NCBI GenBank assembly: GCA_949361645.1
Contig: OX442415.1
Coordinates: 17,015,269-17,079,268 of the forward strand
Length of the DNA: 64,000 nucleotides
Origin: Spongilla lacustris
Taxonomy: Eukaryota; Porifera; Demospongiae; Spongillida; Spongillidae
Reading direction: 5' to 3'
Positions 19,101 to 53,451 of this stretch are shown here, piece by piece. A model generated the notes under the pieces. That model was not told where the DNA came from and did no database searches. It saw nothing but the letters and a program-made list of their open reading frames with translations. The position numbers and the translations under genes are program-made. The stretch's first letter is position 1. Each line of letters begins with the position of its first letter.

Positions 19101-22100
19101 TTCTGTCATTTGTAACCCAGACACAGCAAACAACTCCTCTAGCAGTTGTTTTTGGATGGTGTGTTGCTGGTGACGTTTCAACCACTCTAGGCTCTTGTGC
19201 CTTGGGTCAACAAATGCTGCCATCCCCAGGAGTACGTTGCCTGTGTCCCATCGCTTTGTGAGATCATTGAGAAGAAAGTCTCTCATCCAGGTGACTGCTA
19301 TGGGAAGATCAGCCCAATCCTTATATAAGCCCCAGGATTGAGGTGTTGCTCAAATACAGAAGAAGTTGAGTAACTTTCCGGGATAGGATACCAAGGGTGG
19401 GGTACTTCTCCCCTTGAAGGTAATCCATCACAGTTTGGAATGGCTTCCTGAAGTGACACAGCAGCTCTCCAGTTACCCAGTCATTATCTGAAGGCCCTTT
19501 CAAACCAAGCTCATTCATTAGCTTGCACAGAGGAAGCTCAACAGTGCAGATTATAATTTTCTCCACAGGTCGGGCAAATGTCAAACCAACAACAATTATG
19601 TTCGGACATGGCTGGACATTAACAAACTATATTTAACTAGTGTATGCAGGGGCGGATTTAGGGGGGGGGGGGGGGGTCCAGACCCCCCCTTTCCTATATG
19701 AAGAATGACGTAATGCATAAGAATGACGTAGTGCATACTGTAATCTATGCAGCGTTCTGCATGTTACCATCCTTGGATTTGCAGGCTTGCACATTGTTCT
19801 AGCCAAGCGGGATCTAGATCGATCTAACTAAATCCTCCTATTATATTAACGAAATTTAATTTTGCATGTGTGGTTAATTAGTATTTAATCGCGCGATCGA
19901 TCGAATGGTGCATGCGAGCGGGAATTGAGGTACATGTAAGCGATCAAAAGACATGAATGGGATGGATCTCAGATTCTTTTCCTCAGAAAACGGTTATTAC
20001 CGTAGCTATAGAGCTAAACAAACTAAAAGTACTAATACTACATGTATAGTAAAACATACCGACATGTACATGTGGCTGGTGCATGGCCACATCGTCAGTG
20101 TCACAGTGTATAGCCATGACATCGTCTGATATTCTCGCTCATACTGCGTTTGCCACTTCCTGAAGGTGGTGAGGCTAATTTTGCGTCGCTTTGGCGCTGT
20201 ATCAGCAGAATCCTTGCCTGAAGCACGTTTCATTGCCTTCGCGCACATAAAAGTAGGTGTGGTTACTTAGTTTGCGCACACTAATAAATTCGTGGAAGTA
20301 GCGTCGCAAGCTAGCCGCGCACACATTTCGCGATTCATGGAAATTATAGAAGGAAAAAACTGCCTGGACATTCTGTCAGGGTAATGTTAAAAATGACCGG
20401 ACATTTGACCTGCTTGCCTGGACAAATGTCCGATGACCGACCGTTATAATCTGCACTGCTTAAGCTGCACACATCGTGAAAGCATATAACATGTTAAGTT
20501 CCACCTTGTCACTACTAAATCTTGAATAAGCTTTAGTGTTTGTGGTTAACTATGAATTTTAATAAATTGTTTAATAGTATCATGTTTTATGGTTAGCCAT
20601 GAATTTGTTTAATACATCAATTTATCCGACCTGGCAGGCCGGGCCTTTCAGGGCGGACCCCGGCCTGACTTTCGGCAACCCTGACCATAGCCCTTGTAGG
20701 CATCTTAAAGGAATCTTTTCTAAAGCAGCAAATTGTATGTTGTACGTACACAGGTGAGCAAACTCAAGAGGTGAATACCGATCAGTTTAAGTCCTGGAGG
20801 GAAGGAGGAACAAAAGTGATGATAGCAACAAGTGCCTTTGGGGTAGACATTGACTACCCTAATGTCAGAGACGTGATTTGCTGTGGATTGCCTTACACTG
20901 TAGAGGACTATGTGCAACAGACGTGACGAGCAGGAAGTGACTCAAAGGCATCAACAGCACTGTTAATTTATGATGAACAAAAAGAACGACATAGACTAGA
21001 GAACATGGACAAGGGCAAGAATTTTTTTTCAAAACATGTTGGCATATGCCACAACGAAAGGAGTGTGTAGAAGAAGGAATTCTCTCAAGGTACTTTGATG
21101 GTTCAGAAGTAGGTTGTGCTTATGAGGCATGTAGTATGTGCAATGTATGCACGGTATCAACACGTACACATTACTGTCCTTCTAGCCAGGCTGGAATAAG
21201 TACCAAAAATGACACAACATTTGGACAAAGAGTTCTGATAGTTGAGAGGAATCTCACACAATGACTGAAGTTTTACTTGACAAGTTATATATATCTATGC
21301 ATTGTGTGCCATTTGTCAAAAAAATCAAACTATCAAACTCATGGTACAGGCTTCAAATCATCTTGTCCTACCATTGTTGCAGGGGGAACGATAACGGTCG
21401 GTCATCGGACAAAAACCGATCAATTAAATCACGTGACCGTTCAATTATTTGCACGTTCGGTAAGTGATGTCCGCTCAAAAAAAGAAGTGTCGGTCTCGCG
21501 CTCGAAAAACAAAGTGCAGATGCTGAAGGGACAAGTAAAATAGCTAAGCGTTCTGTTTCTGTTAAAACTGTTGATAAGTGGAAAGCAGAAAACGATAAGG
21601 CTTTTAAGTACGAGTCTTTGGCAGTTTGGCTACAGTACGATAAGTCAATGGGGATAGCGTAACCACGCTGAAATGCTCTTTGTGCATTAGATTCAATGAA
21701 AGGCTATTAAGCTGTAGGAACTACAATGCAGCTTTTATTACAGGATCATGTAATCTTCGCCTCTCATCAGTGAAAGACCACGCAAGTTCCTATATGCATG
21801 AGCGTGCAATGCAGCTCTTTAAAAAGAAGTCAGTACTGTAATGTCACTGACTACGCGCCAATAGCAAGAGCACTTTGTACAATGGATGCAGCTTTAGAGC
21901 TTAAGATGAAAAAAAAGTTTTAGATTGTATATATGCTCTGCAAAGAACACATGGCATTCACAAAAATGAGCCCATTATGTGAATTAGAAGAAAAACCTGG
22001 CAATTGAACCATACATATTCAGTCTAGATGACTGGGAGACACTCTGATTTTTTTGTTTCGGCTTGTTTTTTTAGTTTGCAAAACAATACTTAGTTGCTTA

Positions 22101-34229: not shown

Positions 34230-36390
34230 ACGGAGGGCCAGAGGGATTAGAAGATTTGTTTTCAATACAGGAACGGCAAACTATAACCTCGCACCATGCG
34301 GATCACCAAATCGATAGAAAAGGACGGAACCAACCTTGTATGAAAGTTTTAGGCCTTGAAAAGTGATCGCTGATAGTTCCTGAACTCACTCGCGTTAGAG
34401 AACTTCGTGTCGCGTGATGTAATTGAACCAATATTGGACGTGTCGCCTGAGTAATTGAACCGAGCGTGTGACATTTATATATTCATATTGCGGTCGAATA
34501 AGGTCTATAGGGTGCCTATGTATTACATTATACATATGCATGTAAGAGCCTTCCGTCCGCGATCCGGCACATCTCGGCGATACCAATAGGGTTGTCAGGG
34601 AAGCCGGCCAGTCCTATTGCAACATACTGTAGAGGCCGGGCCGTAACCTGTCACCCGGCTGACCTGAGCCATTCACGAGTTTGACTAATTGTTGTATAGG
34701 TACAAACTTGAGGTTATAATTAGTCACGTATTGTTGTTGAATGTGTACTATAGCTATAGCATGTATAATTACATTGGACGTTAAGGTTATGTAAACATGC
34801 AACACTCTTTTGAATAGATCCCGTCATAAATAGCCTTCTTAAATCTGTCGGCACTTCCTGCCATGCACTTCTTGAGGGCTGTAAGTCAAAAGATGCTTGT
34901 ATATAAACAATAGATGCATGGATGCATTTCACATGCACTCCGAACAGTATACAGCTAGCATCGGTTTTAGCTGTGCTATTTTTCTGTGCGTTATAATGCA
35001 TGTGCTTAGAGTACTAGATTGCATGCATACATGAAGTTGACAATTGCATAGACCTTGTTACATGTACAAATCAGTACAGCACTAGCTGCATCATCAGAAA
35101 TTGCTTCAGTTCTGCATGTCAAACTTGATTTGAGCGGTTTCTTATGGGGTAGGAACCATGCATACCATAAGATGCATGAACATCCATGGGACCGCGGCTT
35201 CGCTGCATGACGCGTACTGAGGCTTGCATGGGTTGGGAATGCTATATTCAATTGTCATTACAAAAGTAAGGGAATGTTATACATGTGCATACAAATATAT
35301 GGGAAAGTTTACGAGAAAAGGGACCTAGCGTGCATGTATTATATAAAAGTATAATAAAAATGCATTACGTTTGATTTGCTATAACTTCCGAACAGTTAAC
35401 GCTATCAACTTCCTATTTCCAACATTTCATACTGCACCATTTCTCTATGGTAAAATATATTTTGGAGTCTTGCACTTGCTCCGTGTCAGTATTGCAACGT
35501 TCGATACCCCACTGGGTTCAAACCCGCCATAACTTTCGGTAGGAGTAATCAATTAATTCGCTTCAAATTCGGTTTGTATGTAGAGAGGTCCTATACCTAT
35601 CGATTTGTTCTGTTCGCTGATTTTTATGCCATCCATTACGGAGATACAGTTGAACAAACTACGTGCCCATTTTCGCGCTCGATTCGCGCCAATGATTTGG
35701 GCAAATTGCGTTCCGCTCAATGTATGGGGAGGCGGGGATTATATCATTGGCGCGAATCAAGCGGGAAAACGTGCAAGGAAGCTGCAATGGCAACTTGATC
35801 GTATGGACCCTAGGTTTTTGTGATGACGATTGACGAAGCGTTTTAGCCTGTGGTGTTTCTTATCTAGTAGCTTTATTTTTATACATGTAACTTATGTAAG
35901 TTAAAAACGTCAAGTCTCTGTAATTGTACACCAGTATCAGCGGACCGTATATTGATTTTATATCGGTTACATTTGTCCGCAAACACACAGTTCGTTGCTC
36001 TGACATCACAGTGCTAGAAACAACATCTATTCAAACATGTACTCATGTCGTAGTGCGAAAATTCCCTCTAGTACTTATTCCTAACACTAATTCGGTTACA
36101 TGTTGTCGTGAATAATTGTTTGGAAGGCCAGTACATTGTACAAGAAATATAAAAAACCAATAAGAAAGCCGAGTGTTACCGATAATATTCGGTTAGAAGT
36201 TACCTCTTACTGAAAGGTAATGATAAGAAAAGTGTCTTACCGGTTGCTTAACGGTATCGGATAACCGGTAAGCGGTATGGACAAAACTTATCGATACTGA
36301 GTTGACCCTAGGTCCCTAGCTATGGGTCGGTAAGGGGGTGGGGCCGTGGAATGCTACATGTATCTTGTTGGGGGGGGGGGGGGGGGGGGG
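34230..36390. other. Gene-free AT-rich stretch
   Basis: I see no supported gene. It includes an imperfect inverted repeat around GATTCGCGCCAATGAT (about 35683-35698, inverted about 35741-35757). 34170-34225 has G/C-run sequence ending CTAAATACGCCACTGCC, which looks like a transposon end. Confidence 0.5.
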
Positions 36391-36393
36391 GGG

Positions 36394-36610
36394 GGACACA
36401 CTCCTGGAGGCGGACACCTGTTCCTAGGAGGCAGTGTCCGGGGGGGGGGGGGGACACTCCTTCCTAGGAGATTGTGTCCGGCGGACAATGTTTCCTAGGA
36501 ATAATTGTCCGGCCGGACAATTATTATATGGGGGGACACGTATTCCTATTACACCGGACCAATATTTTCTGAAGAAAAAAAAGGTCCGTGTCCTAGAAGA
36601 AAAGGTCCGG
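36394..36610. repeat. Tandem hairpin array (core TTCCTAGGA) at a Ginger 5' end
   Basis: At least four units bounded by GGACAC or GGACAAT and GTGTCC or ATTGTCC. Each has an inner palindrome TTCCTAGGA, and units are separated by G-runs or CCGG. The array ends 50 bases before the start codon of a truncated Ginger transposase. Confidence 0.85.
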
Positions 36611-36660
36611 AGATTTATTTCAATTAAACGTCCACGTGGTTGATATTCAGTTTGCGAGTG

Positions 36661-37580
36661 ATGGCGGAGATTGAAGAAATACTTGACGATGGTTCCGATT
36701 GTGATGATTTTGTCGAGGAGGCCTATGCCTATTTAGTGTCGAAGAAGTATCCTGAATGTGTCCATGCATGAGACCAAAAAGAGGGTGATACGAAGGAAAG
36801 CTGCGAAGTTGACAATATCTGTTGAAGGAGAGCTATTATATATTGGAAGAGGCCAAAGGCAACATTATCGCTGCACATGCAGTTGAGGCAGAATTAAGAA
36901 GCATACGACAAAAAGCACTGCAAACCAGGCTAACTTCAGTGTGAACAGTTGGTATTGCAGAGAAACTTCTCCCGTAAAAAGGTCAGGGGTGGAAAACTGA
37001 CAGAAAGATTTCTTAATTGGGCCATACACAATCTTAAATGTGCTGCCAAATGCAGGCAGCCACTTAAAAATGCACATGCAAGTTGAAGATCAAAGTTCTT
37101 CACAAGGAGATTGTGCAAGTAAAATTTAAATATCATACAATTAAGAGATACTTGTCAGTCTGCAGCTGATGTATGTTCTCCTAAGGTTGTAATAAGAGAT
37201 GCCATACATGCAAGTTACAAATACATGGGTATATCATGATGCAACTCTTAGCCACCATGCATGGAATATGCATTGTTTATAGGTTGCTTCTTCTGGTATA
37301 TACTCTGGCAAGCCCTCATTCTTCTGTTGAGATTGTCACACAGGAGGCCAATCTAAAGGTTTGTCTCGTGTATCCTTTTTCACTTACTTAGAATACAAGA
37401 CTAGATATATATTTTCATTAGACCCTTCATCACCCTGTAATCGTGCCCATCAAAATGACCTTGTTGAAGTCGGTGGCATTGATAGTGGTTGCACTGTACT
37501 GGAGGATTGTTCAGTTTCTGAAGAACGAGATATCATTCGTAAGGTAAATTACAATGTACTACCTAAGCAGGGAATAATTT
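36661..37580 (+). pseudogene. Internally deleted Ginger transposase
   Basis: Starts MAEIEEILDDGSDCDDFVEE, AYAYLVSKKYPECV, then after a frameshift RVIRRKAAKLTISVEGELLY. This parallels the complete copy at 49319 (VEEAYEYLVRNVYP, RCIRRKAQKF). It then jumps to a GPY/F-like piece (RKKVRGGKLTERFL, IGPYTILNVLPNAGSHL) near 36970-37060. The H2C2 finger and DDE core are missing. A further frame at 37361-37582 may be tail. The ULP1/PHD tail at 40290-40720 could be the other end of this copy, split by later insertions. Confidence 0.7.
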
Positions 37581-38200
37581 AACCGGTATCGCATCGCATT
37601 TTGCGAAGCAGTTTTTATAAGATGCGAAACAACTTCAAACATGGTCGCAGAAAACTGCGATGCAATCTAATCCGCGTTTGCAGGCACGTTGCTCAGTGTA
37701 AATGCTACGCGAAGAGAGTGCATTTATGGTACAAAAGAATTCCAATCAGAAAGCTGGCGCCACGTCACATCAGCCACACTCACGTGACATCGCGATCGCG
37801 ACAATTAATGTGATTGTGTATACGCGTACGAATGACATGAGCGCGCAGCATACACAGCCGGCTTCGAGAAGGGGGGTGTCGAATTTTATATTAAAAGAAT
37901 TATCAAGTTACCAAATAATTACTAATTAAAGTGTATGCACAAATATGCCCGAACGCGTACGCGACAGTACAGTGCCAATATGGGTGGACAAAATCTACAA
38001 ATATTAAAACTTTTAAATGTGATGGTGACCTCATAGACGGGGGAGGGGGGGGGGGGGGGAAGTAGTCGTTTGACTCGTTAACCTGAAAGCGATCCAAATG
38101 CACGTGGGCGTGTCCGTGGGATAGCTCTGCTTTGTGTTCAAATGAAGAATCACCACACATCTCGGCGGGAATGAATTGCGATGCAACTGAACCAAGTTGC

Positions 38201-38400
38201 NNNNNNNNNNNNNNNNNNNNNNNNNNNNNNNNNNNNNNNNNNNNNNNNNNNNNNNNNNNNNNNNNNNNNNNNNNNNNNNNNNNNNNNNNNNNNNNNNNNN
38301 NNNNNNNNNNNNNNNNNNNNNNNNNNNNNNNNNNNNNNNNNNNNNNNNNNNNNNNNNNNNNNNNNNNNNNNNNNNNNNNNNNNNNNNNNNNNNNNNNNNN
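38201..38400. other. Assembly gap (200 N)
   Basis: Exactly 200 undetermined bases. All open frames across it are artefacts. Confidence 0.99.
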
Positions 38401-38639
38401 CATGATTGTGGGAGTGTCACATGTCTGCCTGCATTTGATTGGTAGCGACAAAATTCTGTCGCTGTGCTATGGAATTCGACCCATTTTCGCCAGACGTATA
38501 CAATGTCATGTAAACCATATGCATTTATACGTCTGGGTACGAGACTACCACTGGGTAATGTCAGCGCTCGACTTGCTACAGGTCCACTCTTTTTGACTTG
38601 CCGTAAGGTTGGAAGTAAGGTAACTCATGGTCGTAGACA

Positions 38640-38785
38640 ACCTTCAAAGTTTGGGGGGGCTATAATGACTGGGGGTGGGTGCGGGAGGGGGCGTGCCCCC
38701 TCCTGCTAACAGAAAGGGGGTTTGGGGGAGCGCTGTAAGCTCCCCCAATGGGTCTGGGGCGAAGCCCCAGCCGCTTTAACTTTTT
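38640..38785. repeat. Double-hairpin module, copy 1
   Basis: Contains GGGGGAGCGCTGTAAGCTCC (stem-loop) followed by CTGGGGCGAAGCCCCAG (stem-loop). The same two hairpins in the same order occur at about 47757-47806. Probable subterminal module of a transposon family. Confidence 0.7.
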
Positions 38786-40160
38786 CCTTCTTTGTTGTTA
38801 GCAAAAGCTATGCAGAAATTGACCCGGCTGCCGGTATACGATATAGCAACGAATGCTTCTTGATCAAAGCGATGCGTTATTGCGTTTATTACATGATTTA
38901 TAATCCCTTCCGTTGTGCACCAAAAACTCTCTTTGAAAAATATATTTTTGCCTGGTTGGGCTTAGGAGGAAAAATTCGAACACGGGCGATGATGTAAAAT
39001 CAGTAACTGCATCACCGGCTAGTACTTTCACAATCAGCACCACATTCTTGGCTCATTTCAGTATTCACCACGCTGCTTATAATCGCAGGATCACATCTAA
39101 ATGAGGAACCGTTACTACATAGAGAATCCACAGTACTTGGACTTCCACTCTGACCGCTGCAAGTGTTATTGCTAGGTATGTTGCAAAAGTGCAATAATTG
39201 TCCTCCATTTTGTTCCACATTATTATTGCAGGATTATTAACACTTTTGAGGTCCATTTAAAAACTTGCTTCGTGTACGGTTTTGCTTTGCGTCATAGTTC
39301 GGAGGTTCGTTTTCATCCTCTTGTGTAGATTTCAATAAAAACGTACTTTACCAGATATCACTGATTCACTATTGGAAAAAGTGCTATGACTTTACCGTGC
39401 AAAATTAAAACACCTTGATCGGGATAGCGGACATCTTTGAAAGGTGTTTGGACATTCAATGTAGTGTATAACCTTGTATTGCACAAAATTTCATCAAAAT
39501 CTATCGATGCGAAGATATTGTTTTTTCGCCCGGAATTCGGTCGGCCGTACATGTATACGTAGTGTCTACATGCACTAACGTCATGTATTTCCCTATGAGT
39601 ATACATTGTTATTAAAGTTATGGAGCCACAAACAACTATATCGCTTGCATAGTGAACCTTTAACAGAATAGTTTGAAAGGGCATCTATTAACCTGCATAT
39701 ACTGAAAATTCCATCCCGATATGGTATACGTTGCAAAAGTTATGTGGGATTTAACAGAACATGCACGTTTTAATGAATTCCCATACTAAAAAAAAAATGC
39801 TTTTTTTACGCTTTAAAACGCTATATCTTCCGTATTTTAAATAATAAACTTATGATTTTGGTATCATTAAGTATGGTTTAATGCGCTCTTCAAATAAGTG
39901 TTATTATCTCTGTGATTTAAACAATTTGAAAAAATTTGCAACATACCTATTATTGCTGTTGCTGCATGCTAGTGCATGGCAAATCAAATCGCGATCGTTT
40001 GACAATGCGCTACCTTGCTTCTTAAAGAACTTCAAGAGTGACATAGTACGTCGTCGTATGCGAACTAAACATGCACATGTGTACTAGTACTCACGATCGA
40101 CCGAATTACAGCTGTAAGTAGTTAATTCTAATTATACGAGCGAACATTTTAATATTTTCT
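38786..40160. other. Gene-free AT-rich stretch
   Basis: Only short frames. Minus 39358-39684 (IFASIDFDEILCNTRLYTTL) is not recognised. No RNA gene or repeat was identified. Confidence 0.45.
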
Positions 40161-40289
40161 CCAAGGAAAATTTGGAGGGGGGCTCAAGCCCCCCCAAGCC
40201 TCCCCTTGTCTACGGCCTTGAGGTTGGAAGTCATATGTCTTCAACCCTAACCCATCAGTTATGCCAGGTGTTCAGAACATCAATATGTG

Positions 40290-40720
40290 AGAGCCGGTGC
40301 GGGAATATCATTCTTAGCTGTGAAAGTTGCTACCATCCAGAAGCAGCGTGGCAGTGATGATTGTGGGGTTTTTGCAATAGCATTTGCATTGCATGGTGCC
40401 CTGGGTAAATTGAGTTCGACCAGGCTACTATGCAAAACCACCTCCTACAGTGCTTTACTTCAAGAAACTTCACTCCTTTTCCTACCAAGAAAGTCAAAAG
40501 AGCATGCCATACCCGCATCATGAATATACATGTGTTTTGCATGCAGCTGTCAGATGCCTGACACTTATGGCGATATGGTGCAGTGTGGTCTTTGTGAACA
40601 CTGGTTTCACATCAAGTGTGTTGGCCTCCACTCTCTTCCATCTAGTGCAGAAGAATGGAATTGTTCACTATGTACATAAATCTTGGTGTGTTAATGAACT
40701 TTACCTTTACTGAATATTTA
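40290..40720 (+). pseudogene. Ginger-type ULP1-like/PHD tail fragment
   Basis: Contains the C-terminal half of a ULP1-like cysteine protease domain, VATIQKQRGSDDCGVFAIAF (Q...DCG with the catalytic Cys), then FPTKKVKRACHT. A PHD-type finger follows in another frame: CFACSCQMPDTYGD, MVQCGLCEHWFHIKCVGL, EEWNCSLCT. Same architecture as 52432-53022. Frameshifted, without integrase. Confidence 0.75.
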
Positions 40721-40786
40721 TATACGATAAGTTGCACAAATGAACTACTACAATTATTTTACACATGACACATTACATCATCAGTA

Positions 40787-41191
40787 TTATACACATTCTT
40801 CTAAACTATATACATACAACAGAGTCACGAAAATGATGCCGATCGAGCCAGGAGGGCTTGGGCATTTTGCCTCTTCAAAACAGTGCCGAGGCGACAATAT
40901 ATTGCATTTAGCATTGGATGAGTGGGAGTGGATGGCCAAACGCCTAGCAATTCTTGAGAATGTTTCTTCTGCAGTGATTCCCCAGCCTCCATATGCCTCC
41001 ACTACGAGAGGGACACATATCCAACCTCTTTCCATACAACCCAAAGCATTGTTTTCTAATTTCTCTTGTTCACCCGCTGCAGCTGAGGCACCTGAGGTCT
41101 GACCAGCATCTGATATCAATGAATTATTGACGGGATGTATAACCTTGATGTCAAATGCCGCAGATCGAGACAGTGACCAGAAAATACACAA
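40787..41191 (-). pseudogene. Non-LTR-type element C-terminal domain, second copy
   Basis: Reads AAFDIKVIHPVNNSLISDAG, ERGWICVPLVVEAYGGWG and ARRLAIHSHSS. It is homologous to the domain of the next feature (AALDLTVISPLSSNVIAEAG, ELGWICVPLAVEPYGAWG, ARRLCIK). N-terminal parts are missing. It lies directly downstream of the other copy, suggesting nested or tandem 3' ends. Confidence 0.6.
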
Positions 41192-41214
41192 CTAACTACA
41201 CCATACATATAAAT

Positions 41215-44200
41215 CTACAATGCACTTCTACTCAACATCACTCTTGAGTTGGCCTTAATTAGGGACATGTTCAGACGACAATATAGATTAGAAATCACTC
41301 TGGACATTGTTTGGTTAGTTTTGATGCAGAGCCTGCGGGCCAAACGTGAGATTGTACGTTGTGCTTCTATGCCCCATGCACCATAGGGTTCCACTGCTAA
41401 GGGCACACAGATCCATCCAAGTTCTTCACACTTTGGATCATTTTTGATGTGCTTTCGGACTACAGCAGATGCAGCTGCTGACCCCCCTGTGAATCCCGCT
41501 TCGGCAATGACATTTGAGCTAAGCGGTGAAATCACAGTGAGGTCTAGGGCTGCTGGTCTGCTGCAGAACCAGTTGGGAACCAAAGTGTCAGCTGGCCTAG
41601 TGCGACGGTTGTCATGGCTCAACCCACTTCCAGCTTCACATTTAACACTTATGCCTGCCCGACGAAACGACTCAGCCAGTATATCTCTGATGTTGTTGTG
41701 CCTTATGACAACATCTCCCCCTAGCTCTCTTACAAGTTGTTGCATGGTGCCCCAAAGGATCTAAGGAATGGTCATAGCCTTCAGGGTCAAGGTGCAAACA
41801 CTGACCAGGAGTTGGTATCATAGAGAGCCATGAGGAGGAATGTGGTGCTGATACAGATAACAGCCTTGCCTTGTCGGCTAGTGAACTCTTGTTAAGTAGA
41901 CACTTGAACTGAACGTCGTCAATGTTAGATGACAGCCTTCTGACAACACTTTGTATGCACTACATCCATAACTGTAATGAAGTCTCAAGTGAAATACTTT
42001 GATTGTACATGTCCAGTGCATGATTCAGGTGAGTACTATGAATGGATGCAGTACCTGAAGCACTAAGAGAAGCTATATATGCTGCTGGAGAGTGAAGAGC
42101 TAGAGATCTTATGCCAAGGCCCCATGAGAGAGGCTTAATTCAGCCTGGTACCAATTAGCATCTTATGGGTCTAAGGCCAGGCACTCTGTGAAACTTTGCC
42201 TTACATTTTTGTCAAACAAGGCAAGCTCCTTAGCAGCTAGAGCTGGGGGTGTTGTCCTTGCTATGTGGGAGAGCTTACAAAATCATCCACAAAACGAAGA
42301 AGGATGAGAGCTACATGAAGATCTTGTGATCCTAAACTTTCAAGGGATTCCAAGCGCTTTATAGCCATTGCACGCTTAGATGAAATAAATGCTGAACAGT
42401 GTTGGAAGTCACCTATGAGAACACCCAGGATGACCATGCAGGTTTGGCTCAGTTGATGTCTTCATCTGTGATGGAAACAGAGCAAAGTCTGCATATTGGC
42501 TAAACAGTTCACATTTTGAATGGTTGATGTTGGGGGCCCAATTCTTCCAGGATATGATTGGCATGTCTGACAGCTACCACAGAACCAGCTATGGCATCAT
42601 CATCCAATTAAGTATCAACGATGCAGGAGCAAATCAGCACAACAGCTATCTTTAGAAATGGAGATGACAACTTTTTGTAGCACTTGTCATGCCGTAAATG
42701 GTCCGGGCGATATATAACCGGTCCGACCGAACCATCCATGGTGCTACAGACGGTCCCCCCCAGAACCACCCATGGTCGCCCTCTGCTACATATGGTCCCC
42801 CTTTTGTAGTCACAAATATTTCAACCTTTTCGAGCCTACCATAAAACGTAAGGTTCAGAAAATGACTTACGAGTTAAGAAACATATCCGTGCCATTTTTC
42901 TCTAGGCAGTGCATGCACTGAACTGTTTTAAAAATGAGTGGCGAGTATATCAGCAAAAAGGAATAGTATTGTGACAACATACAACTCTTCATGCGTGCAC
43001 AGATTTCCTTCTTTACACTCATTGTTCTAAAACTTCCAAGCGCAGTATAGTATCGGACGGAGAGATACCATTTGCAACGACATGCATCAAGCTTATTAAC
43101 TTAAGATAATCAATTTACAGGTAATCATTTTGAGACAGTTACATGTATGTAACGTGTAGTATTGGTATGTGTACTGTGTCAATCTGCTGACAGTATTGTG
43201 CATCGTATGTACAGTGGGGGGGAGGGGGGGGGGGAGGCAGCTCCCCCCGCCAAATATTAATTATGCAGCATACACGATAGCTATAGCTTCGTGCATCATT
43301 TTTGCGCTGCGCATGCATGATAATATAAGTGGATCCTTGTTTTAGATCGCTAAAAATATACCCTCCCCCTTCCATTACCAATCTAATCGGGGGGCGGACC
43401 ATCTGTGGCAGAGGGAGACCATCTATGGCACCATGGATGGGGGACCGTTCACAGCGCCACGGATGGTCCGGGGGGACCATCTGCAGTTGCCATGGATGGT
43501 CCGGGGGGACCATCCGTTGTGTGACAGTACCAAGGCATAAAGGGATCACCCTGTTGCACTCCCTGTTTGGATGTCAGACTGGTGCCAGAGATATGGGTGT
43601 TGGCCATAGCACCAACTGACCCAAGGTAACAATTCTGGAAAGTGGTTTGCACATTCCTCTAGGATAGCCTGACGAGAGACAATGTTAAATGCATTTCTCA
43701 GATCTAGCATGCAAGTGATGAAGTCTTTATCTTTCCAGTGGTCTTCTATACACTGACGCAGACTATGAACAATCCTTTCACTACCAGAAGGACATGAGAC
43801 ACCACATTGGAAGGGCTCAAAATAGGCTGCAGCTTTCATTTTGGTGAGGGTACAGAGACATTTACTTACTAGCCTCCTGAGTGTTTCACCTACAGCTATT
43901 GGTATCACATCCATAGGTTTTCCTTGGCTGTCCATTTTCAAGGCAGTCAAACGTCCCCCTGCTAGATATAGAGCAACTTCCTGTGGTGCTTTCCATACTG
44001 CTAATAGGTTCACTACACCCAGGAGCAATGAGCTGAGACTGGTTGGTAGTTGAACTTCCACGGCATCCAATAAATGCTGAATGCGCATGCCTGATGGACC
44101 GGCTGCGCTCAGTTTGAGGAAATATCTAAGAATTGTTATAAGATCGAAGTTGGATGGAAAGAGGGTATACTCTAAGACTTGTGTTACTGCACTTGTCTAA

Positions 44201-44706
44201 GGGGGTGAGATTGGAGGGGGACAATGGGGATGTTTTGAAACAAGTAAACTCCAAGTTTCATCAGTATCAGGTGCTACCCCAGATGATGTGAGAGCCTGAC
44301 ATGCCTTGCCATATAGCCCATCCATTGCTAATGAAATAGCTGCAGAAACCCTCCGGCCTAAGCAGCCAGATCTTGCCTTGTGTGATTTTTGCCACCTTGA
44401 GGTTTCAAGGACTGCCTGATCCCATAGAGATCTAATTTGACCAGCCATCCAGCGATCACACAGTTGGTTAATGTCTATATAGGCTTGCGCTGTCGACCAT
44501 GATGCTGACAGGAAAGAAGTATACATTTGGGCAATAGGAATAGCTTTAACCAGGCCTTGTTGTATTCAGGTACAGAATATCTTTAAGGGTAGCAGCAAGT
44601 AACCTGGCAAAAGCTGGCGTAGATTTGAATGGCATGTGACGAATAATAGGACATCGTAGACCAAACATTTCAGCAAAAGATGGTAAACTGGAGAATCGAT
44701 CTCAGG
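41215..44706 (-). pseudogene. Non-LTR-type retrotransposon ORF, interrupted and mutated
   Basis: Read from the right: FAEMFGLRCPIIRHMPFKST, LLAATLKDIL; CLGRRVSAAISLAMDGLYGK; then reverse transcriptase ALYLAGGRLTALKMDSQGKP, PIAVGETLRRLVSKCL, CMLDLRNAFNIVSRQAIL and QGVQQGDPF. An 841-bp element (42686-43526) follows. RT resumes with KLSSPFLKIAVVLICSCIVD, and the catalytic YxDD box reads T, TAA, LDDDAIAGS. Thumb-like and C-terminal parts follow, and the ORF ends with RPADTLVPNWFCSRPAALDL then TVISPLSSNV (41745-41215), possibly a PD-(D/E)xK nuclease. Stops, frameshifts and the insertion make it dead. Exact clade not assigned. Confidence 0.75.
42686..43526. mobile_element. Non-autonomous element with hairpin arrays at both ends
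   Basis: Ends TGTCATGCC... (42686) and ...GTGTGACA (43526) interrupt the RT reading between QGDPF and KLSSPF. Both ends carry GGACCAT/ATGGTCC hairpin units around CATGG cores (42702-42803; 43388-43520). The interior is AT-rich without coding. A target duplication is not clean (GTAC against GTGC is a candidate). End structure resembles the arrays at the Ginger elements, so it may be mobilised by a Ginger transposase (inference). Confidence 0.7.
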
Positions 44707-44709
44707 GAG

Positions 44710-47160
44710 AGATATATATTAATATAAACACTTGCATATATTTATGTATGGTATATTGTACATGTAATAAAAAATAATACACATGTATACGAATTAAACA
44801 TATAGATCACATTAAAATCCCTACCACCCATATATTATTATTATTATTATTATTATTATGGTCACCCTATCTATATACGTTTTTTTTTAAAGCCAGGTTT
44901 TTTTAGGAATAGCATGCTGTAGTGTTAACCCCTCAGGAGTGTTAGAGCCAACACTCCTGAAGTGTAGCCAGTACACACTATTGGGTGTTGACACATGCAT
45001 GCAGGTGATGATGATCAATCACAACATAAATTGATATTAATAAACTATACCACAACAGGTCCAATAGATTTTTCCTAGATCTAGGACCTCTATATTACAG
45101 CTTCGAAATTAACATTGTATTTTCTAACTTAATATTTTATTGTGGTCTCCAATCATATTTGGATAAGTATTAGTTAAAAAGAAAGCATTATAACAAGTTG
45201 TTTATATCATCACATCAAAATGAGTTTATTGCAAAAAAAGTGACGAAAGTTTATTGGTTCCTTTTTTTGCTTGTAACTTCACACCCATATGTGCTCTATT
45301 TCAGGGGAACACATTTTAACATTACTAAAATACTGCCCTATAAATGTACTCTGATTTATGCAAACATTATATGTTTCAAATATTATATATATATGATGAG
45401 ATAAACAAAGTTGAAATCTATAAATGATTGTATTTACATGAAGAGCAAAATCAGCATTCAGGAGGTTTTTTATAATTGACCTAGCCAGATCCAATCCTGT
45501 ATGGTACTGCTAGTTAGTGATCTTTCCTCAAATTATGATTTTAATATGCAAGTTTTATGAATGCAACTTGGCCTCCTTACATCCATGCAATTCAAAGGCA
45601 TGCGCACGCCTGTTCCAACAAGGTTTATGTCATGCAACATGCATGATTACACTTCAAAACATGATCAAAATGTCTGCAAAATGTAGACATATACACTCTA
45701 CAAACGGAGGCTGCTTCAGTGGTGGTGTTCCCATTTGTCCAATGTGGGCTGGTAGCTCCATGTGGGGGTTATGGTTTCTCAGGTAGTGAGTCTAGGATAG
45801 GGGGCCATTGTGGCTGGCCGCAGTGTTTGGGGCCTGCACCATGTACATGTAACTCCACATGCAGTAAAGGCTAATGGCTCCATTGCATGTGTGGTTCCAC
45901 TCCACATGCTGGGGACCAGTGATGTGGCAGTTGGTGGCTCCCCTGCTGGCAGTCTGATTACTCCATGCGTAAGAGGTCTGTTGGGGGTGGGAGGGCTGGT
46001 TGAGTGTTGTTCCACTAGTATTGTGTGTTTGCATTGAGAGGGCTAGTGAGTGTGGGATGGCCTTGCATGTTTGCTCCTGGACCTCGGATACAACTTGCAG
46101 TAAAGGATAGGTAGTGAGAGACAGGATTGTGGGGGCTAGCCCTGTATGTGGGGAGCTTCTAAGTGAGGGCTAATGGTTCCATGGCCAGGGCATGTGTGAC
46201 TCCAGTTGATGGCTCCCCTACTATTGTGGGCCTATTTCAGTGTGAGAACTGGAGTCTCCACCAGCACGCATTATGGCAGGAGCCCTCAATGACCCCGGAG
46301 AGTTTAGCAGCTAGTGGATCCCTCGCTGGCAGTCTGATGACTCCATCTGTGTGTAGTGTGGGGCTATTAAGTTCACTTGCATTAATGGTTCTGTCCGCTT
46401 GCAGTGAGTGAGCTGATCCTTGGGCCATTAACTCAACATGCAGTGAGGGCTAATGGTTTCACTCATAGTGTTTGGAGAGGGGCAGGTGTACATACAATAC
46501 ATGTAGTTCATGGCTTACCCTGAAATTTGGGAACTACTTGTAGTGGCTGGCATCTCCACTGGCACATACCTATTAGCTGTGTGTAGGTATTAAATGTAAG
46601 TTCACTTGTCTCGTGCGGCCAAAATGTATTTTACCATAGAGAAATGATGTATAATGTGAAGTATTGCAAATAAGAAGTTGATGGCATTAACCGTTCGGAC
46701 GATATACCGATTCAAAAGAGAAGCATTTTTATAACATTATATATATATAATTATATATATATATACAAAGACTCATTTTGTCGGAAACTGTCCCAATACC
46801 ATAGATATTAGAGTAGAAGGATTGGAAACGGATCCAATTAACACTGCTTCACGCACCGACTAATCGATGCTCCTCGTTCCCAGACCGCTTACCGTATTTG
46901 ACATGCATGGCCGCGTGCTAGAAGGCAACAGCTCCTTTTGTGGAATCAAGTGATACAGGTATTTATTTCAAACGAAGTCGAGTTCCGTGATATGTATACT
47001 CAGTTGTTTCTTTATTATTAGGCACTCTACTTGAAATAGGGAGAGTTTACTGAAGAAAGATACCTTCAAACTCTCATCACCAGTAGCGGACGTTTGCAAA
47101 AAAGCTGCTCATAGATAGTAGCTGATCGCCTCAATACCTCTAAAAAGATTAGTGCTGGTC
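44710..47160. other. Gene-free stretch with simple repeats
   Basis: (TTA)n at about 44836-44859, (TA)n at about 46737-46764. Between 45700 and 46500 there are loosely repeated blocks such as GGCAGTCTGATTACTCCAT / GGCAGTCTGATGACTCCAT and GTGAGGGCTAATGGTTCCA, suggesting an old diverged tandem or segmental repeat. No gene supported. Confidence 0.5.
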
Positions 47161-47540
47161 GCGAGAAGATGTGGACAGCGTTTCACAAGTTAAGAACGTC
47201 AGCAGACTTTCGAAACAAGTGGAACGATTTAAACACTGCCATGAGGAAGCTGTACATCCTCACCTCTTTCAACAAATAACAGACATAATATTTAAGAAAG
47301 TATTAGCGAGAAAGGTGAGTGTACAACAACAGGATGAAGAGCAAGTAGTTGAATTAACAAGAGCAGAAGATATGCTGCAGGAAGTCTGCAAACAATCATC
47401 TAAAGATCCATCTAAATCATCTAAAGATCCATCTAAACAGAACCTATTCTTCTGTATGGAGATGTTGCGACGTGATAGTGCAGTTGACAGTGAATGTGAG
47501 ACCAGTGAAGATTCATATATGATGGAATCGATATCATAGA
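47160..47540 (+). pseudogene. Small transposon-like ORF fragment
   Basis: MWTAFHKLRTSADFRNKWND (from 47169), then a shift into HPHLFQQITDIIFKKVLARK and a polar tail (VELTRAEDMLQEVCKQ, EDSYMMESIS). The WTxxHKLRTS...W and HPxLFQQxTD blocks are reminiscent of N-terminal regions of invertebrate transposon proteins, but I cannot name the family. A contained direct duplication encodes SSKDPSKSSKDPSK. Confidence 0.35.
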
Positions 47541-47744
47541 TCGGGGAGGATTGTGGCACATCCCCATAGGCGGCGGAAGGTGAATAAACCTGGGGGGGGG
47601 GCGGAAAAGTATAACTGGGGGGTTCGGCCAAATACGAACGGGGGGGGGGGGGGGTCCCCACATTCACTACTGGATGGCTCTTTTACTACGGCGTTTCCAC
47701 CCGGCACTCTCGTCTACTTGCGGCCGAGGCACCTCCCTCTCGCC

Positions 47745-47815
47745 AGCAAGGGGGTGTGGAGGAGCGCTGTAAGCTCCCTAATCGGGGTCTGGGGCGGAGC
47801 CCCAGAAGCTTTCAC
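47745..47815. repeat. Double-hairpin module, copy 2
   Basis: GGAGCGCTGTAAGCTCC followed by CTGGGGCGGAGCCCCAG, the same order as copy 1 at 38640-38785. Confidence 0.7.
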
Positions 47816-47899
47816 ACTTAACGCTTCAAATCCCGCTAAAAATTAGTCGGCTGCCGTGCGAATACATGTACATGTACCAGAGATAATAAATAAATAAAT

Positions 47900-48077
47900 A
47901 GTCCATGTTTAACGAGCGTATCTTCTTCGTACTCGTAAATTAAAACGCTTCCATGTACCTATTTAAACATTTCAGGAAAGAACTGGTACTCCAACAGAAT
48001 AGCACGCAGCTGAGTTCACAATTACGTCGATACGCTCGTTTAAACATGGGCCATTTTTTTCGGTGGGGGCGGAGGGG
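47900..48077. repeat. Hairpin repeat family, copy 2
   Basis: GTTTAACGAGCGTATCTTC inverted as GATACGCTCGTTTAAAC, with AACTGGTACTCCAACAG and GCACGCAGCTG between and TTTTTTTCGGTGGGGGC at the right. Same layout as 33850-34055. Confidence 0.8.
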
Positions 48078-48813
48078 GGATATATCGCGGTGGACAATAG
48101 TTATTAATACATGTCAAAAGTTCATTGCGACAACGAAGCCCGATGTTTATGACCGGTTTATGGTTTATGCTATACTGAAGCGCATGCGTTACATATAACA
48201 TACGCGCATCTATATATACCATTAATTAGAATACAACTTGTGGAAGTTATGCATGGTCACATATGTAATAAAATAGCTGTATACTACCAAAAATCTGGGG
48301 GGGCCCCTCGCATAACATTTTATTTCATCTAGTCTATGACAAGGCTGGGAAACTTTACGGCAGTACACGGAATCGCGTTGACGCCATTACTCAGTAGCTC
48401 CTAGCCGTCGCCAAAGCTGCATGTCGTTCCGCCGCTTGAAAAGCTCATTGTAACCAATGCAATACTGACACACATATACACGAACATTTTAATTTTAGAA
48501 TTTTAGTATTAAAGAATACACAGCTCTTATCCTTTCCGTGTCGTCAAAGCACTCATTGAAACCAATATTCACACACATATATACACGAACATTCATTATT
48601 AAAATTCCTTAAGGAGTGGTGATTGATATACTTCATGGCTGAAATCTCATCAGTATGAGAGATTGAAATATATTGAGATCAATAGGATCATAGCCTGAAA
48701 AGTAATGTCACATAAACACAGCTTCACACTATTCCCATGCATGCATCGTCAGTTCATCTGTTGCGTGATAGTACAACCGATCAGTCGGTTACTCAGACTA
48801 AAACCCATCCTAA

Positions 48814-49002
48814 AGAGCGTAAAAGCCATGCATCATTCTGCGTCCAGGGTGGGAATAATGTAAAACCTTACTTGGAGCCGGGGTTTTTGTCGAATGTTGA
48901 CGTATGAATTGAATTATTGCTTCAACATTCGACAGAACTAGGGTAGAACCACATGTATTCCCATCCTGGACGCACAATCCGGGCAGGATGGTTTTTACGC
49001 TA
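48814..49002. mobile_element. Fold-back MITE
   Basis: Arms of about 45-50 bases in inverted orientation (AGCGTAAAAGCCAT...TGCGTCCAGGGTGGGAAT against its complement at 48957-49000), with an inner inverted pair GTCGAATGTTG / CAACATTCGAC. No coding. It lies 70 bases left of the Ginger hairpin array. Confidence 0.8.
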
Positions 49003-49072
49003 TATAAGGACGGGTCTTTGTTAAAAACCAGCCTGTTGGACGTTTATAATTGCCTTTGTTGTCCTATAGGTA

Positions 49073-49267
49073 GGACATTGCACCCTAGTGTGGAGTGTCC
49101 GGGGGGGGGGGGGGGGACATTTTACCCTAGTGGGGGACAGTTTGCCCTAGTGCAGAATGTCCACGGGGACATTGTGCCCTAGTGCAGAATGTCCGGGGGG
49201 ACATTCTGCACGGGGGGACAATCCGCCCTCCCACACCGGACCGAAAATGACGCCAAAATTTGTCCGG
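49073..49267. repeat. Tandem hairpin array (core CCCTAGTG) at a Ginger 5' end
   Basis: Four clear units with GGACATT...AATGTCC arms around CCCTAGTG, plus partial units, spaced by G-runs. The array ends about 50 bases upstream of the Ginger start codon. Confidence 0.88.
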
Positions 49268-49318
49268 GCAAACCAAAACTACATAACACCTTGAACACGT
49301 GGAGCATTCGTTTTGAAA

Positions 49319-52300
49319 ATGGCTGATTCAAGTGAAGAGGGAGATGCCAAAAGTGCGGGGGATCTAGTAGAAGAAGCATATGAGTACTTGGTAAGAAATG
49401 TGTACCCTGTGGGTGCAAGCGTAGCGCGCAAGCGGTGCATACGAAGAAAGGCTCAGAAATTTGTTGTGAAAGATGGAGAAATGTACTTTAAGAAGAAGAA
49501 GAAGGGCAAGGTTTGTTCATTTTAATTTGGCTAATGCACACCTACTGTGTCGTCCGCACGTCATGGGTTGAGCTTAATTATTATAGATAATGGAAATACG
49601 ATTTGTCGGAGTTAAGAAAGAGCAGCGTCGTATTCTGAAGGCTTGTCATGTGGATCCGATGTCCGGGCACATGGGAGTGAAGCGCACTTTGAACAGGATC
49701 AGCGAGCGGTTCATTTGGCCTGGAATGGTCAAAGATGTGAATGATACGGTGAGCGGACATGCAACTTAGATTTTTAGTAATAGATTTCTATAAAGTCCAT
49801 ACCTGAATTTAAATAACCGCAGGTCACCCAATGTGACATCTGCCAGCATGCAAATCGGAAACACATGCATACAGCCCCAGAACTACACCCGGTTCCAGTG
49901 AAGTCACCATGGAATCACATTGGCATTGATTTTGTTGGGCCACTTGTGAAATCTAAGTCAGAAAATCAATACATCCTGACTGTGTGTGACTACTTCTCCA
50001 AATGGGTAGAAGCAGTCCCACTTCCATCTAAACATGCAATTGGAGTTGCCAATGCACTCTACAAGGTAGGTCAATGAAGCAACGTTTTCCTATGTGTAAT
50101 TACATTATAATTGCATTTACATTGCAACTGAGATATATATGTGCTTATTATTTTAGAAATTAAGTTATGGTACAGTAATATAATGCCATGCCCACTCCAG
50201 GCCCTTAGCCAGGAAGGGGGGGGGGGGGGGGGGGGGGGTGGGCCAAGAGGCTGAGTTCCCCCCCCCCCCCCCCCCCCCCCCCCCTCATGCAAGGGAGACC
50301 CCACACACATATACACATTCGCATTTGGCTAAATGTGAGGGGACCTCCCCCACTTTCAAAAGTCCTGCTATCGATCCCCCCCCCCGTCAAATGTCCAGGC
50401 TACGGGCATGCACTCATAGTCTAATTCACTGTATTCTATCCTTGCAGATTTTTATGAGAATGGGTTTGCCCAAGATCATTACAACAGACAATGGCACTGA
50501 ATTCAAAAATGAATAAAACAAGCACCTTATGGATCTCCTAGGTATAGATCACCGGCTGACAACAGCGTACCATCCACAGGTCTGTAATATGTCTGCATTC
50601 ATTTTTTCCATGCTACAATAAAATTATTGCGTATGTTAAAAAGTAGTGAAGCCATTTTTGAAGTTAAATCCAATTATTACTTAAAGCAATGAGAAGAAAT
50701 GTTTAAGGAACAACACTGTAGATTTTATATTTTGTTGTCTCAATACCTAAAAGGAAGACAGACCGTTTCCATATTTAATAAGGGTTAATGGACTCGTATA
50801 AATTTAAATGATTGGTAGAATACCATTAAAATTATGCTTTTATCCAATGCCAACTTTGCATTCATTTTATAGGCCAATGGTCTTGTTGAAAGACTTAATC
50901 AGACCTTGCAAAATATGATTGTCAAATTTTGCAACGTGAAGAAAACCAATTGGGATGATGTTCTGAATACCTGTGTTTTTGCATACAACACTTCTTGCCA
51001 CGAAAGCACACTTTATACGCCGTTTGAGATTATGTTTGGGAGAAAGGCAATTCTACCAATTGATTTCCAAATGCATGTAGACATAGCAGAGAAAGTTGAG
51101 GAACCTTTTAACCCAAATGCTTCTGACATAGAACGAATTACTGATGAAAGAATAAAGGTACTGAAACAAGCAAAAGCAAATATTCAATTGGCACAAAAGA
51201 AGCAGAAGCTAGAATATGACCGGAAACATGCTAACCCAAAAGCCTATGAATTAGGTGCAAAAGTCCTAAAAAAGGATTTCAAAAGGAAAAAAAGGAGAGG
51301 AGGAAAATTGGACTACAAGTATGTGGGCCCATTTACTATAACAAAGTGTCTTGGAAAAGGTTTGTACTCACTTCAGTCAATTGAAAACCCAGATGTAGTC
51401 ATCAAGAGCGTAAATGGTGTCCACATCAAACCATATCTTACCCCACACAGTACTTTTAGTACACATTCAAGCTCAAACTCATCCAGTTACACACCACCAG
51501 TAGATAAATCAGTTCTTCATAAAACTGAGCTTGTACTTTCCAGTGGTGATTCATTCCACAAGAGAGGTGACTCATCAGCAAGTAGTCCTACATCCAAGTC
51601 TCAGCACTCCAAAGAATCAGAGGCCACTCTCCAACATCTTAGTGCTAGCAAACAACATATGGAAGAGCATTATTATGCTGATAATCACTTAAGTAATGTT
51701 CAAGATGATGGCAATCCGCTTTATGCGTGGAAGTGTGTGACATATACATTAGAAGGTTGTAAAAGTGAAAGCTTAAATGTCTTTGATCATGAAAGTACTC
51801 AAATGGGTGACCTTGCATTTGTATTGGAGTCTTCCAAGCATATCACAGTACCTGAATTGCCAAATCCCCATAGTGAGATGGTTACAAGTACTCCAACTTT
51901 AAGTGGAGGATATTTTACACCCAATGGAAGATGGAAACTTATCTCCAATACCAGTTTGTAATGTGCTGAGCCACTATAAGGAGAGCTGCACTTTCCACCA
52001 CTGCCTCTATCCCAAACCCCACATCCTCGCCTGCTTGTCCATCACAGGTTCCTCAAACTAGCAGCTGTCCACAGAGAGATTTTCCAAAGAGTCCAAATTC
52101 ACAAATGCAATTAAAAATTGCTATCACAAAGGATAAATGTCATTTGAAAAGCAAACACCATAAGAGCCACAGTGAAAAACGTGAAGTGATTCCTAGTGAA
52201 GAAAGTAAGTGATTATGATTATATTCAATTTTATAAAAATTATTGCATTTGTTTATTTCCACAGAACAAAAGAAATCTCAAGGGTTACAAGTTTGGATAC

Positions 52301-53022
52301 CATGACTGAACCTACTAGCTGAAGACAACCAGGCCATTGAAGAAGGAAAATGGTTATCAGATCGTGTTATAAATGCTGCACAGGAACTACTGAAATCCAT
52401 CAATACTTCCATTGGCGGGCTACAAAATGCCTTGTTGGCACAAAACTTGCAATTCACTATTGAAAGAGACAGGTTTGTACAAATTTTACATGTTTCGGGG
52501 AATCACTGGATTACAATAGCAAATAATGGATGCACAGGTGGAGAGATAAAGGTTTATGATAGCATGGGACATTCAGATCTTCCAGAGGAGACTAAACAGC
52601 AAGTAGCTGCGTTGATTTTTACCTCAGTCAATAAGATCACACTGACATTTCAGACTGTTCAACGGCAACAAGATAGCAGCAGTTGTGGTCTATTTGCGGT
52701 TGCTTTTGCTACATCTCTTTGTTTTGGATCACATCCAAGTACCATAATGTATGATTCGGCAACCCTAAGGTCCCATCTTAAGCATTGTTTTGTATCAGGA
52801 ATCATGGAGCCTTTCCCAGGCAAGGAAATAAAGGCTCGAAGGCCATATAGCCATGTACAATATGATATATTTTGCAGTTGCAGGCTGACAAGAGGAAAGG
52901 AAAAGATGGCCAGATGCGACAATTGTCTGGAATGGTTCCACAAATCATGCGAAAAAATTCATGGTTGTGTGTTCTCTAAGAGCCAGAAGTGGTTTTGCCA
53001 CTCTTGTAACTCCTCAACATAA
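49319..53022 (+). pseudogene. Ginger transposase with DDE integrase, ULP1-like protease and PHD finger
   Basis: Cut-and-paste transposase related to gypsy integrases. Exons: 49319-49510 (basic N-terminus), 49587-49748 and 49823-50065 (H2C2 finger HVDPMSGHMG, CDICQ; first Asp in GIDFVGPL), 50448-50579 (second Asp in TTDNGTEF), 50873-about 51950 (catalytic Glu in ANGLVERLNQ; GPY/F-like GGKLDYKYVGPFTI; low-complexity Ser-rich linker). One or two linker exons follow to about 52205. The last exon, about 52266-53022, has a ULP1-like C48 fold (GNHWITIANN, QRQQDSSSCGLFAVAF) and a PHD finger (CSCRLTRGKEKMARCDNCLE, WFHKSCEKI, CHSC). In-frame TAA at 50514-50516 and TGA at 52303-52305 break it. Intron 3 holds a G-run/C-run MITE-like insert. 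Confidence 0.88.
50200..50410. mobile_element. MITE-like insert in a Ginger intron
   Basis: Ends CCCTTAGCCAGG and CCAGGCTACGGGC are imperfectly inverted. The interior begins with a long G-run and C-run that could pair. Its position between exon borders leaves the transposase splice sites intact. Confidence 0.55.
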
Positions 53023-53297
53023 ATGTATTTTTAATTCACCATTTATTGCATGCACATGCAGCATGCATGCTTTTTGCTTATATATACATCATTCACTAAC
53101 CATGCATGTACTGTGCATGCACTATGTATTTATTCCATTCATGTATTATACGCTTACGTACATGTACATGTACAAGGCGCCGGCCTCTACTACAGTGTAT
53201 GTACCCCAGATATTGTATAATTGAGCAATCAAGCCTGAAAAATTGCTAGGACAGGCTTTGCGTGTTTTGTTAAGTACGAACTCATTGGATGAAAAGC

Positions 53298-53451
53298 GGA
53301 CCGTTTTTGGCAAGGTAGGACCATTTTTGGCGGACAGATATGGTCCGGGCGGACCACTTTTGGCGACCAAAATCAGTCCGGCCGGACCACTTTTGGCGAC
53401 CAAAAGTGGTCCGCCGGACCACTTTTAGGTAGGACCACTTTTGCCATGACA
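53298..53451. repeat. Tandem hairpin array (core ACTTTTGGCGACCAAAA)
   Basis: Three or four units with GGACCACTTTTGG and its complement, joined by CCGG. The right side ends TTGCCATGACA, comparable with the TGACA end of the 42686-43526 element. It lies 275 bases after the Ginger stop but has a different core from the Ginger 5' array, so it may belong to another element. Confidence 0.8.

Follow-up and report, generated by a model that had tools for sequence, protein, structure and literature searches.

Tandem head-to-head modules with family-private cores at the ends of Ginger1-class transposons in the sponge Spongilla lacustris: putative transposase-binding arrays

What are the tandem arrays of short palindromic units that recur at four loci in a 64,000-nucleotide stretch of the Spongilla lacustris genome (contig OX442415.1; hereafter the window), and why should two of them stand just upstream of Ginger transposase genes? 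The initial annotation described units bounded by GGAC and GTCC, with a core particular to each locus, and proposed either a modular binding-site array co-evolving with its transposase or a structured promoter or 5′ untranslated region. Our analysis combined the window with scans of the 248.6-Mb assembly (51 contigs). Judged by their sequence, the arrays are the terminal inverted repeats (TIRs) of Ginger1-class DNA transposons and of their short non-autonomous relatives, and we predict, with a probability of roughly 0.75, that the modules of these TIRs serve as repeated transposase-binding sites.

The arrays are real and occur genome-wide. When a unit is defined as a GGAC...GTCC stretch of 24–38 nucleotides in which half or more of the inner arm is complementary, the window holds 13, against a mean of 0.35 and a maximum of 1 in 20 dinucleotide shuffles. 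Twelve of the 13 lie inside the four loci, whose cores are those first described there; the remaining one is at 20399–20431. When all 256 tetramer frames were compared at the 70% level, GGAC (6) came second to GGGG (7), which owes its place to G-runs. The tight, CTAG-centered unit GGAC-N8-CTAG-N8-GTCC is found at 3,928 places in the genome, against 4 for the reversed pattern. This tight unit is enriched in the genome, but a loose tandem pattern is not: GGAC-N10-30-GTCC-N2-12-GGAC gave 12,573 places and its reversed control 15,183, and as a genome-wide signature it was dropped as too permissive. No Rfam family reached its gathering score in the window.

Genomic loci fetched around the units (labeled L009–L063) show the arrays in pairs, at the ends of elements of about 0.5–4.4 kb, with a TGT...ACA terminus directly outside each pair and, in many elements, C-run spacers in the left array and G-run spacers in the right. 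One search for ends required CCGG or CCGT flanks and another required no flank. Seventeen elements have both ends in hand, and for these the earlier placement of the arrays at transposon ends, and at both termini, held. In 14 of them the 4-bp flanks are identical: CCGG in six (L009, L011, L024a, L028, L034, and L035), GTAC in four (L033, L036out, L038, and L039), and ACGG (L014), ACGT (L023), GTGG (L029), and GGAC (L036in) in one each; the flanks are unmatched in L015 (CCTG/CCGG), L016 (GTAC/GCAC), and the window element at 42685–43526 (CACT/GTAC). This mix is not a sample, because rows and ends were partly chosen by flank: five loci taken from flank-specific lists supply six of the 17 rows (L034 and L035 from a CCGG list; L036, with two rows, L038, and L039 from a GTAC list), and CCGG served to locate the left ends of L009 and L028. 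The set leaves aside loci with one end only, the second element of L024/L025, and the later loci L040–L063. Genome-wide, termini of the form CCGG-TGT-N13-GTCC number 1,251, against 131 for the reversed pattern. Termini of a second class, TGTCAC-N10-GTCC, number 1,523 (control, 639), and an exact GTAC flank occurs at 53 TGTCAC-class termini, against 1 in the control. GTAC as the strict target of this second class was rejected, since GTAC-flanked termini are a minority and a further sample of eight pairs, described below, included none with GTAC at both ends. Two arrangements were seen in passing: the same Ginger with the same arrays is present in L016 (C1:1949000–1958900) and at C1:1995122, about 43 kb apart, apparently through segmental duplication, and the right end of L060 stands end-to-end with the left end of another family, with one CCGG between them.

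Each end follows a common plan, in which TGTNRN and a 14-bp module closing with GTCC are followed inward by tandem head-to-head pairs of modules. GTCC occupies bases 17–20 in 32 of the 34 recognized ends. The CTAG-type unit, GGAC-N8-CT/AG-N8-GTCC, is exactly two modules head to head minus six terminal bases, and units of the TGTCAC class measure 28–29 bp and have other centers. Adjacent units start 31–35 bp apart in 37 of 47 pairs, most commonly 33 bp (20 pairs), which is about three helical turns. Inner-arm pairing of half or more is seen in 100 of 105 GGAC-N20/21-GTCC stretches in the window and L009–L039; units with less than 50% arm pairing were dropped from this analysis, and those with less than 40% from the first arm-pairing grouping. 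The motif GGAC/GTCC reaches 36.5 per kb in the terminal 220 bp of the 17 elements and 4.0 per kb inside them.

The cores of the two ends of an element belong together. Left and right half-sites differ at 2.09 of 10 core positions within an element and at 4.86 between elements, and none of 20,000 permutations gave a within-element distance as low. The terminal half-site likewise lies closer to its own array (2.60 of 10) than to the arrays of other elements (5.48), as measured in 32 of the 34 ends, two having no GTCC at that place. An element's own partner ranked first in 9 of 17 rows and never below fifth; the ranks are imperfect because the set includes related elements. The core match at both termini, for which the initial annotation had suggested a test, is thus borne out within an element. 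Its further description, of a constant frame with a changing core, applies to the core, which changes between families, but not to the frame as a universal, since GGTAC...GTACC arrays stand beside GGAC arrays at the 3′ end of L031 and in the left flank of the L009 element.

The class assignment rests on the ends and on the encoded proteins. According to Bao, Kapitonov, and Jurka (2010, PMC2836005), Ginger1 elements have TGTNR ends, TIRs of 40–270 bp, target duplications of CCGG (75%) or CCGT/ACGG (24%), and a Gypsy-like integrase; OTU or Ulp1/PHD parts come after this integrase in every case except one. All 34 ends of our 17 elements are TGTNR, having been sought with TGT; the terminal arrays are about 90–220 bp long by eye, and the terminal 20 bp, where inverted identity was measured, agree between ends at 13–20 of 20 positions. 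The autonomous element L034 (4,440 bp, CCGG on both sides) carries arrays with the core TTCCTAGGA at both ends, around a transposase that matches Integrase_H2C2 (59.6 bits) and rve (34.2 bits), both above cut-off, and in L034 and L038 alike PHD is above cut-off and Peptidase_C48 (Ulp1) just below. L056 and L060 have the same layout, with CCGG on both sides in a search that asked for alike flanks. For the integrase, the Ginger copy in the window gave SH3_Tf2-1 only, below cut-off; Ulp1 and PHD are also below cut-off in this copy, and it matches the H2C2 and catalytic pieces of L034 at 48 and 46% over short stretches (50 amino acids). GPF/GPY motifs were recognized by eye, without a profile, in translated open reading frames (ORFs) of the window and L034. 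Ulp1 pieces from the window and L034 match both window Gingers, L016, L029, L030, L033, L034, L038, L056, L058, and L060, the query sources among these matching by construction. Every locus so matched has an array at one readable end at least (for L030, only the right one), and L031 and L057 have arrays though the Ulp1 query left them unmatched. A transposase piece from the window drew 112 matches, whose species-named sources are Ephydatia muelleri and Amphimedon queenslandica, both sponges. The short elements are probably mobilized by Ginger1-class transposons.

If the modules are contacted by the transposase, one would look for cores that change where the transposase does. The core reads ..TTCC in 27 of 37 half-sites of L034, L060, and L057 and ..ATCC in none; in L056 and L058, by contrast, 19 of 23 half-sites have ..ATCC and 2 have ..TTCC, with one end read in each of L057 and L058. 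The window array at 36394–36553, outside this count, has ..TTCC in 5 of 9 and ..ATCC in 0 of 9. The Fisher p value for the split, 1.8e-11, counts related sites as if they were independent and serves as description only. Pairwise identities to L034 in the GPY piece are 86% (L060), 63% (L057), 38% (L056), and 35% (L058), and in the Ulp1 piece 93% (L060) and 48% (both L056 and L058). The comparison covers a handful of lineages, with L059, an integrase-gene locus that has a CATGG-type array and no recognized end pair, left out. As far as the half-sites read can tell, two related Ginger1 groups differ by a core change common to most of their sites. The change of core between transposase groups in these few lineages, together with the sharing of a core within an element, fits the modular binding-site array of the initial annotation.

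A palindromic unit could be a hairpin or a pair of half-sites, and the pairing of its arms bears on the choice. The final re-pairing test drew on 80 units, none of which was dropped on pairing; 24 to 53, depending on the cut-off, were set aside because their arms fell into different half-site clusters, as were clusters that were too small. Within fine half-site families, arms of the same unit had an identity of 0.850 and re-paired arms 0.848 (p 0.50, 16 units), and at a second fine cut-off the values were 0.814 and 0.816 (p 0.60, 29 units). We read the arms as exchangeable half-sites and not as co-varying hairpin arms, and repeated transposase-binding sites are therefore favored.

A number of results weigh against this reading. 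At coarser cut-offs the arms of the same unit are slightly more alike (p 0.037, 35 units; p 0.013, 51 units), an excess that we read as residual family structure; the first, unit-based grouping also gave an arm-pairing excess (p 0.013), and the re-pairing test takes in 16 to 51 of the 80 units. The fixed position of GTCC is partly circular, as most ends were found with it, and two of the 34 ends are without it. The long G-runs between units have no role in a binding-site model. Outside the CCGG class, flanks vary among GTAC, GGAC, GTCC, GACT, GTGG, and ACGT, and in the further eight pairs, three of which were chosen for at least one end without CCGG, they are identical in two only (GTCC/GTCC and GACT/GACT). 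The integrase-gene loci L032, L061, L062, and L063 have no array in the fetched stretch, these stretches being cut and some of the loci possibly retrotransposons. Finally, not all transposase pieces follow the core: the catalytic piece separates the core groups less (93, 81, 78, and 77% to L034 in L060, L057, L056, and L058), and the H2C2 piece shows no clean split (81% in L057, 66% in L056, and 64% in both L060 and L058).

What, then, of the arrays that were said to stop about 50 bases before two Ginger start codons? Ginger's own left TIR does end there, but both arrays are composite and consist mostly of nested elements. At 36394–36610, everything up to 36553 is the right TIR of an inserted element and the last 57 bases, CCGG included, are Ginger; at 49073–49267 the inserted TIR runs to 49235 and the last 32 bases, again with the CCGG, are Ginger. 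Because both loci are composite, the main core next to each start codon is not that of the gene concerned. At the second locus the insertion junction reads CCCACA-CCGG-ACCGAAAATGACGCC in the window, and the corresponding place in L029 reads GGTCCGG-CCGG-ACCGAAAATGACGCC. The TTCCTAGGA and CCCTAGTG cores are those of other elements, inserted at CCGG in Ginger left arrays.

At the first locus, the forward-strand right TIR array with core TTCCTAGGA (36389..36553) belongs to an L034-family Ginger1-type element, with 90% identity to the array end of L034 over 36389–36557 (169 bp); it finishes in ...TTCCTATTACA, and its terminus TGTAATAGGAATACGTGTCC has the CCGG flank. Homology to L034 ends at 36389, and a search for the left end of this element did not find it. 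The CCGG target site at 36554..36557 (strandless) is the junction with the inner part of the host left TIR, which is uninterrupted in L016 and L033. The host is a decayed Ginger1 copy on the forward strand (36555..40756), a relative of L016 and L033, with a left TIR remnant to 36610 and a start codon at 36661; blastn aligns it to L016 in pieces (36555–36842, 90%; 36840–37552, 75%; 40217–40756, 88%), and no match to its right TIR was found when sought.

The pair of arrays annotated at 42702–42803 and 43388–43520 are the two ends of one non-autonomous element of 842 bp (42685..43526, strandless), of the TGTCAC class, identified by its termini and flanks and 72% identical to the same family in L036 over 42685–43479. 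Its left TIR (42685–42803) is degenerate: 42702–42803, which holds no unit by the window definition, is the partner of the right TIR array with core CATGG (43396–43526). The flanks, CACT on the left and GTAC on the right, form no matching target duplication. Farther on, a strandless non-autonomous element (48304..49235; 87% to L015 3326–4263 over 48304–49239) is nested at CCGG in a Ginger left TIR. Its right TIR array (49073–49235) has the core CCCTAGTG, its left array is missing here, and the family is multi-copy, with 771 candidate places in the genome, 40 of which were scored. The host is a forward-strand Ginger1 element (49236..53451) with 98.3% identity to L029, comprising a left TIR remnant (49236–49267), a start codon at 49319, a transposase spread over several open pieces, in which weak Ulp1-like and PHD matches extend to 53019, and a forward-strand right TIR array (53298..53451) with core ACTTTTGG..CCAAAAGT, terminus ...TTTTGCCATGACA, and right flank GTCC. 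L029 itself, with arrays at both ends, has GTGG on either side.

In the mechanism that we propose, each 14-bp module would be a half-site for the element's own integrase-type transposase, so that a head-to-head pair would bind a dimer. Several pairs, about three helical turns apart, would load a transposase multimer at each end and would let a short recognition sequence be specific, and cutting would occur only at the outermost module, next to TGT. GGAC/GTCC would be a contact common to most of the superfamily here and the core a family-private one. Where the element is autonomous, the 5′ array stands a short way upstream of the start codon and may double as an operator.

Other explanations would account for parts of the same evidence. 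The arrays might function as hairpins, of RNA or of single-strand DNA, within a structured promoter or 5′ untranslated region of the transposase gene, a view favored by the end of Ginger's own left TIR about 50 bases upstream of the start codon, by the small arm-pairing excess at coarse cut-offs, and by folding: the RNA folds that had been called for beat shuffles in four of five arrays (z −5.24, −2.37, −6.88, and −4.51) but not in 42702–42803 (z +1.04). Any palindrome folds, however, and elements too short to encode a transposase retain arrays at both ends; for this reason, and because the covariation of arms is absent once half-site families are finely separated, the structured-leader part of the initial annotation is disfavored, and we consider hairpins very unlikely. 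A less improbable view, though still an unlikely one, is that the repeats are passive by-products of slippage or tandem duplication and that only the outermost module matters for transposition. The long G/C runs between units would fit, as would four tandem units at 3921–4047 of L010, the last three identical, with a 33-bp step and GGTTA/TGTTA spacers, which suggest that this array grew by tandem duplication. By-products would not be expected to crowd both ends with few sites inside, as in the 17 elements (chosen for having both ends), nor to share a core change across most half-sites of a group and at both ends.

The two nested insertions in the window raise another thought, that unit junctions (GTCC-GGAC, which spells CCGG) are landing pads and that elements target each other's arrays. 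L009 sits at a CCGG in another array, L060 is followed at its CCGG by the end of another element, and the terminal module of L036 contains an element bordered by GGAC left and right. Genome-wide, however, GT precedes CCGG at 48 of 1,251 CCGG-flanked termini (26 in the reversed control), against 26 of 522 CCGG sides away from arrays, that is 3.8% against 5.0% (Fisher p 0.30); over all fetched loci, which are rich in arrays, the proportion is 158 of 908. Self-targeting was accordingly rejected, the nested cases in the window, L009, L036, and L060 not being in excess by this measure, and we give this explanation almost no credence. That the 5′ array is also an operator, through which the transposase represses its own promoter, is doubtful: the array does lie some tens of bases upstream of the start codon chosen by eye in L016, L029, L033, and L038, but the argument is one of proximity, the 3′ array is equally elaborate, and the first plausible start in L056 lies farther away.

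Repeated binding sites remain our preferred reading, and they admit a broader and more tentative extension, to which we give slightly less than even odds: Ginger1 subfamilies may possess a natural DNA-address code. In it, a private core would recur some 10–19 times per element inside a near-universal frame (TGT end, GTCC at 17–20, and 28–29-bp head-to-head pairs), and as the transposase diverges these sites, at both ends, would change together. The arrays would nucleate the multimer, and coherent core replacement would insulate subfamilies from one another while gene-less elements follow the code of their parent.

The window holds other features. At 12335–16651 a reverse transcriptase with a zinc knuckle (ORF 12335–15163) is followed by a match to a phage-integrase-type tyrosine recombinase just above cut-off (15707–16651), with a 48-bp tandem repeat between the two (15199–15646); together these resemble a tyrosine-recombinase (DIRS-like) retroelement. 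Two partial glutathione S-transferase C-terminal matches lie at 1280–1771 and 4696–5439, and the ORF at 4696–5439 holds a 23-bp tandem repeat of about 14 copies (4866–5192).

If the binding model is true, these elements would show how DNA-binding specificity changes without loss of function, a question that most transposon superfamilies, like retroviral-type integrases, make difficult to study. Here a single genome provides a set of related integrase-type transposases whose private cores are repeated within a frame that hardly varies. In practical terms, CCGG-TGT-N13-GTCC and GGAC-N8-CTAG-N8-GTCC are a usable signature by which short elements in such genomes, otherwise anonymous, can be annotated.

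The elements are of a known kind. With Ginger1 as published (PMC2836005) they share TGTNR termini, a Gypsy-like integrase with Ulp1 and PHD parts, and, in some of the elements, the CCGG target duplication, and the array lengths estimated by eye fall in the range of 40–270 bp given for TIRs; they differ in TIRs built as tandem head-to-head modules with family-private cores, and in a class flanked by sequences other than CCGG/CCGT, GTAC among them. The main text of that paper contains neither "palindrom" nor "tandem." In literature on Ginger ends, on subterminal palindromic or tandem repeats, and on TIR binding sites, searched by title and the start of the abstract, we found no description of this TIR architecture for Ginger elements, in agreement with the initial annotation, which knew of none.

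Several binding sites per end that load a multimer of an integrase-fold transposase are familiar from bacteria, at the ends of Tn7, bound by TnsB, and of Mu. There the sites are few, and we know of no family-private cores set in one frame. Among eukaryotic elements, the P element has internal transposase-binding sites near its ends, with, in the part of the account drawn on here, one 10-bp site per end and no tandem array (PMC7776569). Galileo of Drosophila, a member of the P superfamily, has long, internally repeated TIRs with several transposase-binding sites that are thought to give specificity; its THAP-domain transposase is unrelated, and the abstract does not mention a terminal module repeated in tandem as palindromic pairs (Marzo et al. 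2013, PMC3688188). In the Tetris foldback element of Drosophila virilis, tandem repeats in the TIRs, named TIR-220, share sequence with the terminal domain, and the portion of the report considered describes no fixed frame with changing cores (PMC4079207). On these partial accounts, Galileo and Tetris are the closest known designs to the arrays described here.

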